Virus record (IMG/VR): IMGVR_UViG_3300009285_002340
Coordinates: 1-20,517 of that record
Strand: one strand, 5' to 3'
Length of the DNA stretch: 20,517 nt
DNA from: a virus
Part shown: positions 3,869-12,442 of the stretch, in pieces
Position numbering within the stretch: the stretch's first letter is position 1
Layout: each line of letters opens with the position of its first letter
Program-made: the position numbers and the translations under genes
The notes under the pieces: generated by a model
The model's database searches: none
What the model saw: the letters and a program-made list of their open reading frames with translations, nothing else
What the model was told of the DNA's origin: nothing

Positions 3869-4114
3869 ATTGACAGGCAACTGACCCCGCAACAACTATC
3901 TGCCCTACGCTGCATCCGCACGGCGTCCACCGTATGGCGACATAGTGTCGCCGGCGGCACGCTGGGCATCCCCGGCTGGATGTGGGCCGCGCTGACGGCC
4001 AAGGGCGCACTCGCACGGCGCACCAATGGGGAAACAGGCCGCTACGAGTACCGGCTCACCGACGCCGGCGGGGACGCGTGCGCCGCATTGACAGTTGCAA
4101 TTTCACCGGAATAG
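3869..4114 (+). CDS. Winged-helix-like small protein, start unclear or 5' truncated
   Basis: A continuous frame ending at the TAG at 4112-4114 reads RQLTPQQLSALRCIRTASTV, then GIPGWMWAALTAKGALARRT, then YEYRLTDAGGDACAAL. This looks like a small winged helix: helices, then L-x-x-K-G-x-L-x-R, a beta wing and Y-x-L-T-x-A-G. The frame is open back to about 3784 but contains no ATG, GTG or TTG; the coordinate given is an ATT at 3869 following a G7 run. A TTG at 3870 in the neighbouring frame would fit if one base were different. Either it uses a rare start, there is an indel, or the structured element at 3721-3868 has replaced its 5' end. Confidence 0.5.
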   Translation: MDRQLTPQQLSALRCIRTASTVWRHSVAGGTLGIPGWMWAALTAKGALARRTNGETGRYEYRLTDAGGDACAALTVAISPE

Positions 4115-4123
4115 GTGTAAAAT
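4095..4123 (+). promoter_or_regulatory. Promoter for the structured leader and first HNH gene
   Basis: TTGCAA (4095-4100), 17-nt spacer, TAAAAT (4118-4123), with TG directly before the -10. Transcription would begin around 4130, a few bases before the first arm of the pseudoknot at 4139. It overlaps the end of the preceding gene. Confidence 0.6.
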
Positions 4124-4138
4124 AGAGATGCGAAATAA

Positions 4139-4291
4139 GCGCCTGGAAACGCACTCGCCACATAGCACAGGTTTTTTTGTGCTGAAGAGCATATCACTGT
4201 TTCGACGTAAAGGTCGGGACTTAGGGCAGTCACACACAGATTCCTGTGCTGTTGGCGACGCTTTCCAGGCGCACCCTAAGTCCCGACCTTT
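4139..4291 (+). ncRNA. Predicted large pseudoknot RNA in the leader of the HNH gene
   Basis: Two inverted repeats interleave. Arm A (4139-4171, starting GCGCCTGGAAA and ending AGCACAGG) pairs with A' (4243-4272, CCTGTGCT ... TTTCCAGGCGC), about 30 bp with small bulges. Arm B (4209-4226, AAAGGTCGGGACTTAGGG) lies in the loop of A and is perfectly complementary over 18 bp to B' (4274-4291), one base after A'. A-B-A'-B' order is a pseudoknot. AGCACA/TGTGCT (4164-4183) forms a competing small hairpin. A ribosome site, GGAGG at 4301, follows B' directly, so folding could gate translation. The HEARO/omega RNAs found before IscB HNH genes are an analogous arrangement, but this protein has no RuvC part, so equivalence is not shown. 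The pairing is seen in the sequence; the RNA role is inferred. Confidence 0.6.
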
Positions 4292-4313
4292 GCGCGTTCT
4301 GGAGGTGTGGCAA

Positions 4314-4940
4314 ATGACAACATTGAAGCGGTGTCCCAAGTGTGGAATAGAGAAACCGGCGACGAAAGAATTTTTCGCACGCAATAGCAAAAGCCGTGAT
4401 GGATTTCATTCTCTGTGCAAAACATGCGCCGCCGATTATGGACGCGAATGGCGAAAAAATAATGCCGAACGTCTGGCGGCAAGTAAACGGGAATATGCGG
4501 AATCAAATAAAGAGCGACTAGCTGAGTATCAACGGAATTACCATGCTGTCCACAGGGAGGAAAAGATAGAACGAACCCGCTTATGGGTTCTAAACAATCG
4601 CGAAAAATCAACGGCATATCACCGCAGATATACACCACAATGGCGGGCTGCGAATCCGGAGAAAAATCGCGCAATTGATCAGAGACGGTATGCGCGTCTT
4701 TGTAAAGCGAACGGGGGCCATACCGGCACAGACGTTCAAGCACAATATAAACGTCAAAAAGGCAAATGCTTTTGGTGTGGTGTCAAGGTAGGCGATGCCT
4801 ATCATGTAGACCACGTGGTTCCATTAGCCCGCGGTGGCTCGAACGGTCCTGAAAATTTAGTCATATCCTGTGCGCCGTGTAATCAATCGAAAGGCGCAAA
4901 ACTTCCGCACGAGTGGCCGCGTGGCAACCGACTGATCTAG
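4314..4940 (+). CDS. HNH endonuclease with N-terminal zinc finger, homing type
   Basis: 208 residues from the ATG at 4314, with GGAGG 8 nt upstream. The frame is open to 4095, but that extension would translate the pseudoknot. Residues 7-38 form a zinc finger (CPKC ... LCKTC). A long charged helical linker of about 100 residues follows, with repeated Y-x-x-N-x-E/K-R motifs of the kind that lie along DNA. The C-terminal HNH domain has C152/C155, the D166-H167 catalytic pair (HVDHVVPLARGG), N181 and C186-x-x-C189. It should cut double-stranded DNA with one metal. A close paralogue lies at 8721-9392, and both end in nearly the same KLPxEW...RLI. As a free-standing gene with its own promoter and structured leader it behaves like a phage homing endonuclease. 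Confidence 0.9.
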   Translation: MTTLKRCPKCGIEKPATKEFFARNSKSRDGFHSLCKTCAADYGREWRKNNAERLAASKREYAESNKERLAEYQRNYHAVHREEKIERTRLWVLNNREKSTAYHRRYTPQWRAANPEKNRAIDQRRYARLCKANGGHTGTDVQAQYKRQKGKCFWCGVKVGDAYHVDHVVPLARGGSNGPENLVISCAPCNQSKGAKLPHEWPRGNRLI

Positions 4941-5029: not shown

Positions 5030-5458
5030 ATGTTTGACACCAAGAAGTATACCCAATCTCGGTTCGTGAAAGGCGCAGATTTAGTCGAGGGTGAACGTGT
5101 AGTTTTGACGATTAAGTCGGCGGAGGAACAGACCTTCGAGCAATCCGGGGATACGGTGCCATGCCTTTCATTTCTTGAGATTGACCAGGGGCTGACCCTG
5201 AATCGCACCCGTATCGCTAAGCTCGTAGAGATGTTTGGCGAGGAAACAGAAGAATGGGTAGGTCAACGTATTGCCATCTACCCCGTCCCCGTGACCTTCC
5301 AGGGGAAAAGCACAATGGGCGTCGCCGTCGGCAAGGCGCCGTCACGTGCGAAGGCGCGTGTTTCGGTAGACAACGACGTTGAATTTGAGCAGCCCGCCAA
5401 ACGCAAGGCTGCGCCCGTGGCGGTAGTGGAGGATGACGACAATGAGTCTCCCTTCTGA
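5030..5458 (+). CDS. OB-fold-like replication protein with SSB-type acidic tail
   Basis: 142 residues from the ATG at 5030 (AGAGG 7 nt upstream; the longer frame reaches back to 4913 but overlaps the HNH gene). The core (FVKGADLVEGERVVLTIKSA ... LTLNRTRIAKLVEMFGEETE ... WVGQRIAIYPVPVTFQGKST) matches a common phage family with L-x-L-N-x-T, W-V-G and alternating strands, consistent with an OB fold. After a basic KRKAAP linker the protein ends in VVEDDDNESPF, an acidic tail closing on a Phe, like the DDDIPF tip by which SSB proteins recruit partners. Its place just before the primase-helicase supports a single-strand binding role. The family assignment is by pattern only. Its last 17 bp overlap the next gene. 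Confidence 0.65.
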   Translation: MFDTKKYTQSRFVKGADLVEGERVVLTIKSAEEQTFEQSGDTVPCLSFLEIDQGLTLNRTRIAKLVEMFGEETEEWVGQRIAIYPVPVTFQGKSTMGVAVGKAPSRAKARVSVDNDVEFEQPAKRKAAPVAVVEDDDNESPF

Positions 5459-5936
5459 TCCAGTTTCTGCAAAGGCATGTTTCAAGTGCGGTAGGACTCT
5501 CCCGTTGGGGGAGTTCTACCGACACCCGCAGATGGGGGACGGGCATCTTGGTAAGTGCAAGGAGTGCGCTAAGCGTGATGTGAATGAGAACCGCGCTCGG
5601 CATAGTGACTACTATGTGGAATACGAACGACTTCGTTCATCTCGCCCCGAACGCCGTGAGCAGGCTCATAAATGGCAGAGGATTCGTAGGAGGAAACACC
5701 CGGAAAAACAACAAGCATTGCGTCTCAGAGAACCACAAAAATACAAGGCAAGAACTGCGGTCAGTAATGCTATACGTGATGGCCGTCTAGTCAAGGAGCT
5801 ATGTACATTTTGTGGGAGCAATACAGTAGAGGCACATCATCACGATTACTCGAAACCGCTTGATGTAATCTGGGTGTGCCAACAATGTCACCGAGAGTAT
5901 TTTCATTCAAACCAAGAGCAGCTCTGCCCTTTTTGA
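5442..5936 (+). CDS. Zinc-finger protein with HNH-like C-terminal domain
   Basis: 164 residues from the ATG at 5442 (GGAGG 9 nt upstream; an in-frame ATG at 5433 is also possible). The N-terminal finger (ACFKCGRTLPLGEFYRH ... KCKECAKRD) is the same C-x-x-C-G ... C-K-x-C type as in the HNH proteins at 4314 and 8721. A basic linker follows (WQRIRRRKHPEKQQAL). The C-terminus (LCTFCGSNTVEAHHHDYSKP, VIWVCQQCHREYFH) is a variant HNH/treble-clef domain widespread in phages: two CxxC pairs and an HHHDY in place of the canonical DH...N. Cleavage activity is therefore uncertain; it may bind DNA only. It starts inside the tail codons of the SSB-like gene, so the two are translationally coupled. Confidence 0.8.
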   Translation: MSLPSDPVSAKACFKCGRTLPLGEFYRHPQMGDGHLGKCKECAKRDVNENRARHSDYYVEYERLRSSRPERREQAHKWQRIRRRKHPEKQQALRLREPQKYKARTAVSNAIRDGRLVKELCTFCGSNTVEAHHHDYSKPLDVIWVCQQCHREYFHSNQEQLCPF

Positions 5937-8394: not shown

Positions 8395-8411
8395 TTTTTA
8401 TTGTCAACCAA

Positions 8412-8555
8412 CTATACACACTGTGTATAGTTGGTGTGTATAGTCGCATAGGTGTGGGTGCATAGTGTGCATAGTAGATCGCTAATAGCAAGCTCACTAT
8501 TTTTTCTCGTGTGGTTATATGCAACAAGTATACACACTATACACAACTGTACACA
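8412..8555 (+). repeat. Array of DnaA-box-like 9-mers, candidate replication origin
   Basis: Seven near-copies of CTATACACA or its complement TGTGTATAG: 8412-8420 (+), 8422-8430 (-), 8435-8443 (-), 8466-8474 (-, TGTGCATAG), 8528-8536 (+, GTATACACA), 8537-8545 (+) and 8547-8555 (+, CTGTACACA). Most differ from the DnaA box TTATNCACA at one position. The first two lie in a perfect palindrome CCAACTATACACA-C-TGTGTATAGTTGG (8408-8434). Between the two clusters is an AT-rich stretch (ACTATTTTTTCTCG), suited to unwinding. Location immediately after the primase-helicase supports an origin; an operator cluster is the alternative. This also accounts for the gene-free region 8395-8720. Confidence 0.6.
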
Positions 8556-8633
8556 CTTGACATAAGAACGGGCATCATGGAATACGGAAAACCAATCCGA
8601 ACAAGGGGAGATAGAAATAAGATGGTAGGGCTG

Positions 8634-8642
8634 TGGTATAAT
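8634..8642 (+). promoter_or_regulatory. Extended -10 promoter for the HNH gene at 8721
   Basis: TGG-TATAAT is an exact extended -10 element; no good -35 lies 17 nt upstream, as is allowed for this class. A consensus TTGACA is present at 8558-8563 but has no matching -10 at normal spacing. The predicted start near 8650 makes the ATG at 8721 the natural translation start. Confidence 0.55.
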
Positions 8643-8665
8643 GAGGATACAACCTCAAACAGTTA

Positions 8666-8694
8666 CCGGGGCGGCATCGCAAAATGCCCCCCGG
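8666..8694 (+). promoter_or_regulatory. Hairpin in the leader of the second homing-type HNH gene
   Basis: CCGGGG-C-GGCAT pairs with ATGCC-CCCCGG: 11 bp with one bulged C around a CGCAAA loop, about 16 nt after the predicted transcript start and 26 nt before the start codon. GAGG/CCTC at 8643-8655 makes a smaller stem just before it. Like the first HNH gene, this one is transcribed behind RNA structure, although the two leaders share no obvious sequence. Confidence 0.5.
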
Positions 8695-8720
8695 CATGGC
8701 AGCAGAAAGGTAAGTTTCCG

Positions 8721-9392
8721 ATGCCTCTCCATGATACCGCGGTCGCGCCTGGTCTCAAAGTTTGCACCAAGTGCGGCAAATCCAAACCCGCCACAACTGA
8801 ATTTTTCTTCCGTCAAAAAAATACTAGGGATGGTCTTTGCCCTTCGTGCAAAGAATGTAAACGCGCCTACAACGCAGCAACAAGAATCCAGATAAGCGAA
8901 CGGCATCACGCACACTATGCCAGGAACAAAGAAAGTATAAAGCGGCGCGCGTTGGCCTATCATTTTTCCAATCGGAATGAGAGGTTAGATAAGCAACGCG
9001 TCTACCGGGCTGAGCACAAAGAGGATGCCGCACGACGAGATAGGGATTACTACATCAGAAATAAGAGAAGAATGAATGAGCAGGCACGCGCATGGAGGCT
9101 TGCCAACCGTGAGGCGGAAAATACTCTTTCACGTCGAAAACGTGCTCGCAAACGAAATGCTCCTGGTAGTCATACGGTAGATGATGTCAAAAAACAGTAC
9201 AGGGCACAGAAGGGAAAGTGCTATTACTGCCATATTGAAGTTGGAGATCGCTACCACATTGATCACGTAATCCCCTTAGCGCGTGGCGGCTCAGACGGAG
9301 CGGAAAACATTGTTGTCGCCTGTCCGACCTGTAATCTGCAAAAAGGCCGCAAGTTGCCATCAGAATGGTCTGAGGGAGGAAGGCTGATATGA
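8721..9392 (+). CDS. HNH endonuclease with N-terminal zinc finger, paralogue of the gene at 4314
   Basis: 223 residues from the ATG at 8721 (AAAGG 10 nt upstream). The frame is open back to 8511, but that stretch contains the promoter and hairpin, so the long version is unlikely. Zinc finger C15/C18 ... C43/C46 (VCTKCGKSKPATTEFFF ... SCKEC), then a basic, Tyr/Arg-rich helical linker. The C-terminal HNH has C167/C170, D181-H182 (HIDHVIPLARGGSDG), N196 and C201-x-x-C204-N205. Against the protein at 4314, the finger and the HNH domain are nearly superimposable while the linker has diverged, as expected if paralogues recognise different sites. The stop overlaps the next gene as ATGA. It is probably a homing endonuclease inserted next to the replication origin. 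Confidence 0.9.
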   Translation: MPLHDTAVAPGLKVCTKCGKSKPATTEFFFRQKNTRDGLCPSCKECKRAYNAATRIQISERHHAHYARNKESIKRRALAYHFSNRNERLDKQRVYRAEHKEDAARRDRDYYIRNKRRMNEQARAWRLANREAENTLSRRKRARKRNAPGSHTVDDVKKQYRAQKGKCYYCHIEVGDRYHIDHVIPLARGGSDGAENIVVACPTCNLQKGRKLPSEWSEGGRLI

Positions 9393-10051: not shown

Positions 10052-10753
10052 CTAGTAGCGTGTCCCGTTCTCCCAATCGAACGCCACATGACAGTTTCGA
10101 CAAAGAGAAATCAGGTTGGACAGGGCATTGGCTTCACGATAGCGCTCAAGACCGAACTCTCTAAAGGGCACAACGTGAGCAACCGAGAGTTCTTCAGCCA
10201 ACTCGTCGCGATGTGCCTCACATCGTTGGCATGTATGCCCGTCTCTGTGGCGAGCCTTGTTGCGCTGTTGTCGCCAGTTGGGGCCGTAGTAGGGATATTC
10301 GCCGCCCTTCCAGTGCGGGCTATTCTTCCCGCGAAAGTGATTCGAGAACCATTCGAGCCGGCATTTGTCCCCACAGAAGCGTTTCGCCGTCGCGCTTGCC
10401 GCTACAGTGCGTTCTTTGCCACATTGTTCGCAGCGATAGGTTACTTTGTTCGACTTGCAAGCCGCGGAACAAAAGCGGCTGTTTGCGGCATCGCTAGGTT
10501 TTCGTCGATAGGTTTTTCCGCACCGTTGGCACAGAAGAAGAACGGCATTAGTGGCTTGAGCACAATGCTTCGAGCAGTATTCCTGCTTTTCGATGACAGA
10601 TGCCTTACCGGAGAATGGTTTGCCACATGTCTTGCATGTCTTTGTGGATGGAGCATTCTTGCAGGCGACAGAACAGTAAATCCGTCGCCCGGCTTCGCTT
10701 GGAAAGATAGAGAATGGCTTCCGGCATCTAGGGCATATCAGTGTAATTCTCAT
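10052..10753 (-). CDS. HNH endonuclease with four tandem zinc ribbons, inserted on the opposite strand
   Basis: 233 residues from the ATG at 10753-10751. The N-terminal 130 residues hold four zinc ribbons of the form C-x-x-C ... (Y/F)C-x-x-x-C: CPRC/YCSVAC, CKTC/YCSKHC, CQRC/FCSAAC and CEQC/FCGDKC, probably a DNA-recognition array. After NSPHWKGGEYPYYGPNW, a linker typical of phage HNH enzymes, comes the nuclease domain: RDGHTCQRC, LSVAHVVPFREFG and LSNLISLCRNCH. The His-Asn-His residues appear present, although the first position is AH rather than DH. It is the only gene between 1.1 and 20.5 kb on the minus strand, sits inside a broken HNH gene, and is fed by an extended -10 promoter at 10760. 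It is a likely mobile homing element. Confidence 0.88.
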   Translation of the reverse strand: MRITLICPRCRKPFSIFPSEAGRRIYCSVACKNAPSTKTCKTCGKPFSGKASVIEKQEYCSKHCAQATNAVLLLCQRCGKTYRRKPSDAANSRFCSAACKSNKVTYRCEQCGKERTVAASATAKRFCGDKCRLEWFSNHFRGKNSPHWKGGEYPYYGPNWRQQRNKARHRDGHTCQRCEAHRDELAEELSVAHVVPFREFGLERYREANALSNLISLCRNCHVAFDWENGTRY

Positions 10754-12406: not shown

Positions 12407-12442
12407 GTCAGTTACTCCCCGATGAATCGGGGAGTAACTGAC
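12407..12442 (+). promoter_or_regulatory. Perfect 36-nt palindrome at the predicted transcript 5' end
   Basis: GTCAGTTACTCCCCGAT-GA-ATCGGGGAGTAACTGAC: both 17-nt arms match without error. As RNA it gives a 16-bp stem with a UGAA tetraloop. It begins where transcription from the promoter at 12372-12400 should begin and ends about 70 nt before the protease start codon. As DNA it would be an excellent operator; as RNA, a 5' cap-like stabiliser or small-RNA precursor. No T-run follows, so it is not a classical terminator. Confidence 0.7.

Follow-up and report, generated by a model that had tools for sequence, protein, structure and literature searches.

In the T4 precedent, expression of the stand-alone endonucleases mobE (shown) and segB (implicated) is lowered by structured RNA around the ribosome site (PMC3014915). 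In T4 I-TevI, Aeh1 mobE and T4 segB, as at the locus described here, structure lies at the start of a homing endonuclease gene; it lowers translation and consists of hairpins over the Shine-Dalgarno (SD) sequence or AUG, without a pseudoknot or a conserved junction (PMC3014915 and general knowledge). The orphan Rfam family int-alpA (RF02996) carries the label "sRNA gene," and our search of the open literature found no paper on its function. HEARO, the IscB omega RNA, resembles the present locus in that a structured RNA is placed just ahead of a gene for an HNH protein; this RNA carries a guide, and the protein it partners is RuvC-HNH.

The window, by which we mean the whole stretch analyzed, is an IMG/VR virus record of 20,517 bases with portal, large terminase and Prim-Pol/D5 genes, the primase having no relatives among the viral contigs. 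The plus-strand gene at 4314 to 4940 encodes a 208-residue endonuclease (PF14279, 5.8e-12; PF01844, 3.4e-10) with two N-terminal CxxC pairs (CxxC...CxxC) and an HNH domain, the sole domain found. Its SD sequence, GGAGG, lies at 4301 to 4305 (+), 8 nt before 4314, and its frame is open across the whole leader from 4095 to 4313, 219 nt without a stop. The leader and gene are flanked by a small ORF, which ends at 4113, and a gene at 5031 to 5458 for which the family search returned no family. A second HNH homologue at 8754 to 9389, within the gene at 8720 to 9392, is 47% identical to the product of 4314 to 4940. Two more endonuclease-like genes with zinc-finger pairs are present, one at 10052 to 10753 (−; PF01844 HNH) and one at 5433 to 5936 (+) encoding a short protein with CxxC pairs, making about four endonuclease-like genes in this small phage fragment. 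Elsewhere in the window, positions 1 to 531 hold an array of a 15-bp unit, 21 copies of which overlap; both strands are open there, and the frames encode repeats such as RGGPP. Several direct and inverted copies of TATACACAC/GTGTATA, operator- or origin-like, lie at 8403 to 8560 between the primase and second HNH genes, and at 12407 to 12442 a 17-bp inverted repeat without mismatches, its arms (GTCAGTTACTCCCCGAT/ATCGGGGAGTAACTGAC) separated by a loop of 2 nt, is terminator- or operator-like.

The preliminary description had read two interlocking helices in the leader of the first HNH gene, and both are real in the window. B (4209 to 4226) and B' (4274 to 4291) form a perfect 18-bp helix (21 nt at 95%), the strongest inverted repeat in the entire 20.5 kb. 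With its flanks the B/B' duplex was calculated at −43.9 kcal/mol versus −15.1 ± 3.0 for shuffled partners, and the duplex of A (4139 to 4171) with A' (4243 to 4272) at −51.4 versus −17.6 ± 3.5 kcal/mol, a margin of over 9 standard deviations in each case. For the 199-nt leader as a whole, folding gave a z score of −6.0. The helices follow the order A-B-A'-B' with 1 base separating A' and B', and the end of B' (4291) is 9 nt from GGAGG, all as originally reported; the ATG of the HNH gene lies 22 nt from the end of B'. There was no second copy of the leader repeats elsewhere in the record, an exact search of viral contigs with the B arm and a DNA similarity search of the leader region against 50,697 phages gave no match, and the collections searched yielded nothing closely related to this leader.

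A promoter had also been placed at 4095 to 4123. A consensus scan located TTGCAA-17-TAAAAT there on the plus strand, so that the site is present, but it is weak, scoring 9/12 with 1.0 such site expected by chance in the region. Judged by the homologues, a promoter at this position is nevertheless likely. Approximately 25 near-full-length HNH homologues were found in viral contigs, with further ones from later scans, and a promoter score of at least 9 within 150 nt was found for 59% of the HNH homologues versus 12% of other ORFs at the same loci (p = 3e-9). Better folding than in shuffles was likewise more frequent for the 90 nt upstream of the homologues' starts (p = 0.004). Homologues lacking either helix had been proposed as the evidence that would count against the structure, and here the outcome was divided: many HNH homologues have a different leader of two hairpins, whereas in others the interleaved topology recurs and its helices covary. 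The two-hairpin layout consists of P1 with an inner stem and then a small SD hairpin, and recurs at 14 loci (L026, L034, L035, L037, L040, L041, L047, L048, L050, L055, L120, L123, L192, and L194). It resembles the leader of the second HNH gene in the window (8637 to 8720), which is of a different class and has TATAAT, a GC-rich hairpin (CCGGGG CGGCAT..ATGCC CCCCGG) and then GGCAGCAGAAAGG; GGCATCG of that hairpin is in addition the complement of CGATGCC, which lies over the start codon.

Six HNH homologues (L028, L033, L032, L042, L104, and L121) were found to share one leader type, with the layout P1 (A), UA, P3 with loop CNTCATGAA, GAA, P2 with B as its loop, P1' (A'), and B' just before the SD sequence. 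A second subclass with the core GGATAGGA..CATCCGA was recovered by pattern in 21 viral stretches versus ~5 expected by a rough chance estimate, almost all ahead of an ORF encoding an HNH protein, a GIY-YIG protein or, in a few cases, another phage product. Pattern matches at L108 to L111 were attributed to chance, the rest of the structure being missing. One covariance model was built per subclass (R1 and R2) because MAFFT misaligned the subclasses when all leaders were aligned together. R1 and R2 recover each other's members as well as new ones, all of them before HNH genes (L126, L148, L155, L200, and a second site in L276). We refer to these leaders as class 1, a three-way junction P1-UA-P3-GAA(A)-P2-P1' in which the P2 loop (B) pairs with B' before the ribosome site. 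Across 24 members dissected by hand, P1 was paired in 163 of 174 cells and P2 in 92 of 93. When 20 distinct loops were compared, the longest stretch of Watson-Crick pairs joining B to B' averaged 5.9 bp with the leader's own partner versus 3.4 bp with exchanged partners, and none of 20,000 permutations reached the observed sum. The interleaved helix is therefore well supported in class 1, and at the level of sequence these compensatory changes show that B/B' has been kept in the other members.

Class-1 members directly precede ORFs, with B' ending about 13 to 23 nt before the start codon. Near-identical leaders head HNH genes in one set of phages and GIY-YIG genes in another (L259, L262, L270, L276, and L277 versus L272 and L278), and L270 and L276 each have two leader copies before different genes. 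Promoter-like sites lie upstream of many of the leaders (L028, L032, L033, L042, L104, L121, L126, L144, L148, L155, L200, and L259 to L279). Outside these sets, short blastn queries with three class-1 leaders and a genome scan with A2 gave no match, R2 gave three weak matches in 251 Chloroflexota genomes, none convincing, and of the R1 matches in Pseudomonadota only L306 and L307 look real.

The window leader shares with class 1 the A-B-A'-B' order, a B' just before the SD sequence of an HNH or GIY-YIG gene and, probably, the junction core. However, class-1 leaders are half as long, with a P1 of 5 to 9 bp, a B of 4 to 9 bp and several nucleotides between P1' and B' rather than 1, and the P2 loop and P1 of the window are far longer than the class norm. 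Its core can nevertheless be read in register on the plus strand. The outer part of A (4139 to 4159; GCGCCTGGAAA ... CGCC) forms the 5' strand of P1 and pairs with the outer part of A' (4254 to 4272), its 3' strand. UA follows at 4163 to 4164, a junction present in all 24 dissected leaders, and then the P3 hairpin GCACAGG...TTTGTGC (4165 to 4182), a U, and GAAGAGC (4184 to 4190; class consensus, GAA(A)AGC). By sequence and descriptor match, the 5' strand of P2 is AGCA (4188 to 4191) with its mate TGCT at 4247 to 4250, and GUU separates the latter from P1' at 4254. A weak 4-bp inner P2 helix, also a descriptor match, joins ACTG (4196 to 4199) to CAGT (4227 to 4230). B lies within the P2 loop and, as in class 1, ends (4226) directly at this P2 3' strand; the strand that pairs with the loop likewise lies beyond P1' and ahead of the start codon, and the 22-nt spacing of B' falls in the class range. 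P3 competes with the inner third of the A/A' helix. The inner third of A (AGCACAGG, 4164 to 4171) can pair either with the inner part of A' (CCTGTGCT, 4243 to 4250) or, as a local hairpin that related leaders have, with 4176 to 4183.

The pattern TA-hairpin-GAARAG occurs once in 41 kb, at the leader, and in 0.015% (1.5e-4) of local shuffles. With P1, B, P1' and B' held fixed, the full descriptor was matched in 17 of 4,000 shuffles, a frequency that is to be read with tolerances (a 1-nt bulge, a 3-nt gap and a long loop) chosen partly with the window in view. This register lends moderate support to membership, and we infer that the window copy belongs to class 1. The R1 and R2 models did not match the window leader, nor did the int-alpA model up to an E value of 5 (gathering cutoff, 35.8), and Rfam at gathering thresholds returned nothing for the window and 20 homologue loci; that the window is missed is no surprise, its P2 loop measuring 55 nt. 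MicroRNA-like Rfam matches to the long B helix were set aside as chance. Hammerhead and HDV-like ribozyme folds were also rejected for the leader, the junction sequences and helix order of these ribozymes being different.

Class 1 overlaps int-alpA. L264, a member of a class-1 subclass, matched RF02996 over its full length at 32.5 bits (E value of 1.9e-5), just below the gathering cutoff of 35.8, and L274 scored 28.3 bits, also below it; conversely, R1, built from phage leaders only, matched the int-alpA locus L297 at an E value of 0.0019, all covariance E values being rough. Int-alpA was found above its cutoff in 29 of 150 genomes from the order of Cupriavidus, the host of L200. The 23 int-alpA loci that were read have the class-1 layout with UA, GAAAA and a P2 loop that finds its complement downstream, as CCCTT does in AAGGG. 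Most of these loci have an ORF start about 15 to 25 nt beyond B', with the SD sequence often in or beside a small hairpin. The complementarity of the loop to the 3' end (CCCTT/AAGGG) is conserved at L280 to L305. Given this position and complementarity, a cis-regulatory leader fits better than the Rfam label, and int-alpA appears to be a leader, not a free-standing sRNA. With the window leader the family shares complementarity of the P2 loop to the motif's 3' end and an ORF soon after, and the three-way junction with its UA and GAAA junctions may be shared as well. It differs in scale, being about 70 nt long, its P2 loop ~9 nt and its B helix about 5 bp, whereas the window copy spans ~155 nt with an 18-bp B helix, and in position, since the window leader heads an HNH gene and does not lie between integrase and alpA genes.

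We consider it probable that the RNA of 4139 to 4291 is the 5' leader of the HNH message, acting in cis on its translation, and most likely an enlarged relative of the class-1 leaders that overlap int-alpA. Formation of B:B' beside the SD sequence would hinder 30S loading and keep synthesis of the nuclease low or delayed, and the folded leader may hinder initiation by analogy with the T4-type endonuclease genes. An alternative pairing, either the inner A/A' or 4157 to 4162 with 4306 to 4311 beside the start codon, could give a second state. Two folds, the full A helix and the class-like P1+P3+P2, compete and are both compatible with the B pseudoknot; before any pseudoknot penalty their sums are about −97 and −89 kcal/mol, respectively, versus −84 kcal/mol for the best nested fold, and with B set aside the class-like fold (−55.0) came out less stable than the extended A/A' helix (−63.1), which counts against this reading. 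So does an SD sequence that is only partly paired, being 67% open in the nested ensemble; the interval from it to the AUG (4306 to 4313) is 25% open there, mostly paired with 4157 to 4162. The proposal of a translation switch for a homing endonuclease holds in its general direction, given that homologous HNH genes tend to have promoters of their own and structured leaders, and that a class of these leaders with covarying B/B' keeps close to the start codon within a tight range of spacings. Opening a pseudoknot of 18 bp would, however, take very long, and a static block fits better than a switch. The occurrence of one leader type before HNH, GIY-YIG and other genes argues against simple autoregulation by the nuclease or by one protein fold.

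It is possible, though somewhat doubtful, that the helices arose outside class 1 as a simple cis block burying the ribosome-site region, as in T4 I-TevI and Aeh1 mobE, and that the UA/GAA core is coincidental. Such blocks have a well-documented precedent (PMC3014915), the class models miss the window, and the best nested fold does pair the bases just before the start codon; yet the interleaved topology, the end of B at the P2 3' strand, the register of the core and the spacing of B' are all class-like. That the repeats instead act as DNA, as termini of a mobile unit or as a recombination or replication site, is improbable. A long perfect inverted repeat upstream of a mobile gene could be so read, but the record holds no further copy, the A-B-A'-B' order is unlike that of terminal repeats, and what relatives conserve, on a single strand in the interval from promoter to SD sequence, are RNA-typical junction residues and a paired loop.

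A structured RNA adjoining an HNH gene had also suggested a trans-acting or guide RNA that partners the protein, as a cousin of HEARO or omega RNA, and this part of the preliminary description fares poorly. Rfam HEARO is not matched, the protein has HNH but no RuvC, leaders of this class also head GIY-YIG and non-nuclease genes, and the RNA, whose B' borders the ribosome site, contains no variable, guide-like segment; a guide function is accordingly very improbable. We give an equally slight chance to the leader being coding, with a longer protein starting from 4128 or earlier. The absence of an in-frame stop from 4095 to 4314 would permit this, but the homologues start at the position of 4314 (M-x-T-x-K-x-C), GGAGG lies 8 nt before that codon, and a start at 4128 would lie at or before the likely transcript start.

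With the cis-acting leader as the preferred reading, a broader suggestion can be offered only tentatively: that a regulatory RNA class of mobile elements, known only as int-alpA, might sense a common signal, such as a metabolite, a protein or the infection stage, before unrelated homing nucleases and other phage genes through a loop-to-leader pseudoknot, the window holding a giant version. The covariation of B and B' supplies ready-made compensatory mutants. The comparison ties int-alpA, an orphan filed as an sRNA, to a class of cis-acting, pseudoknotted leaders before phage homing endonucleases, and the family thereby gains a testable role in the translational control of mobile-element genes.
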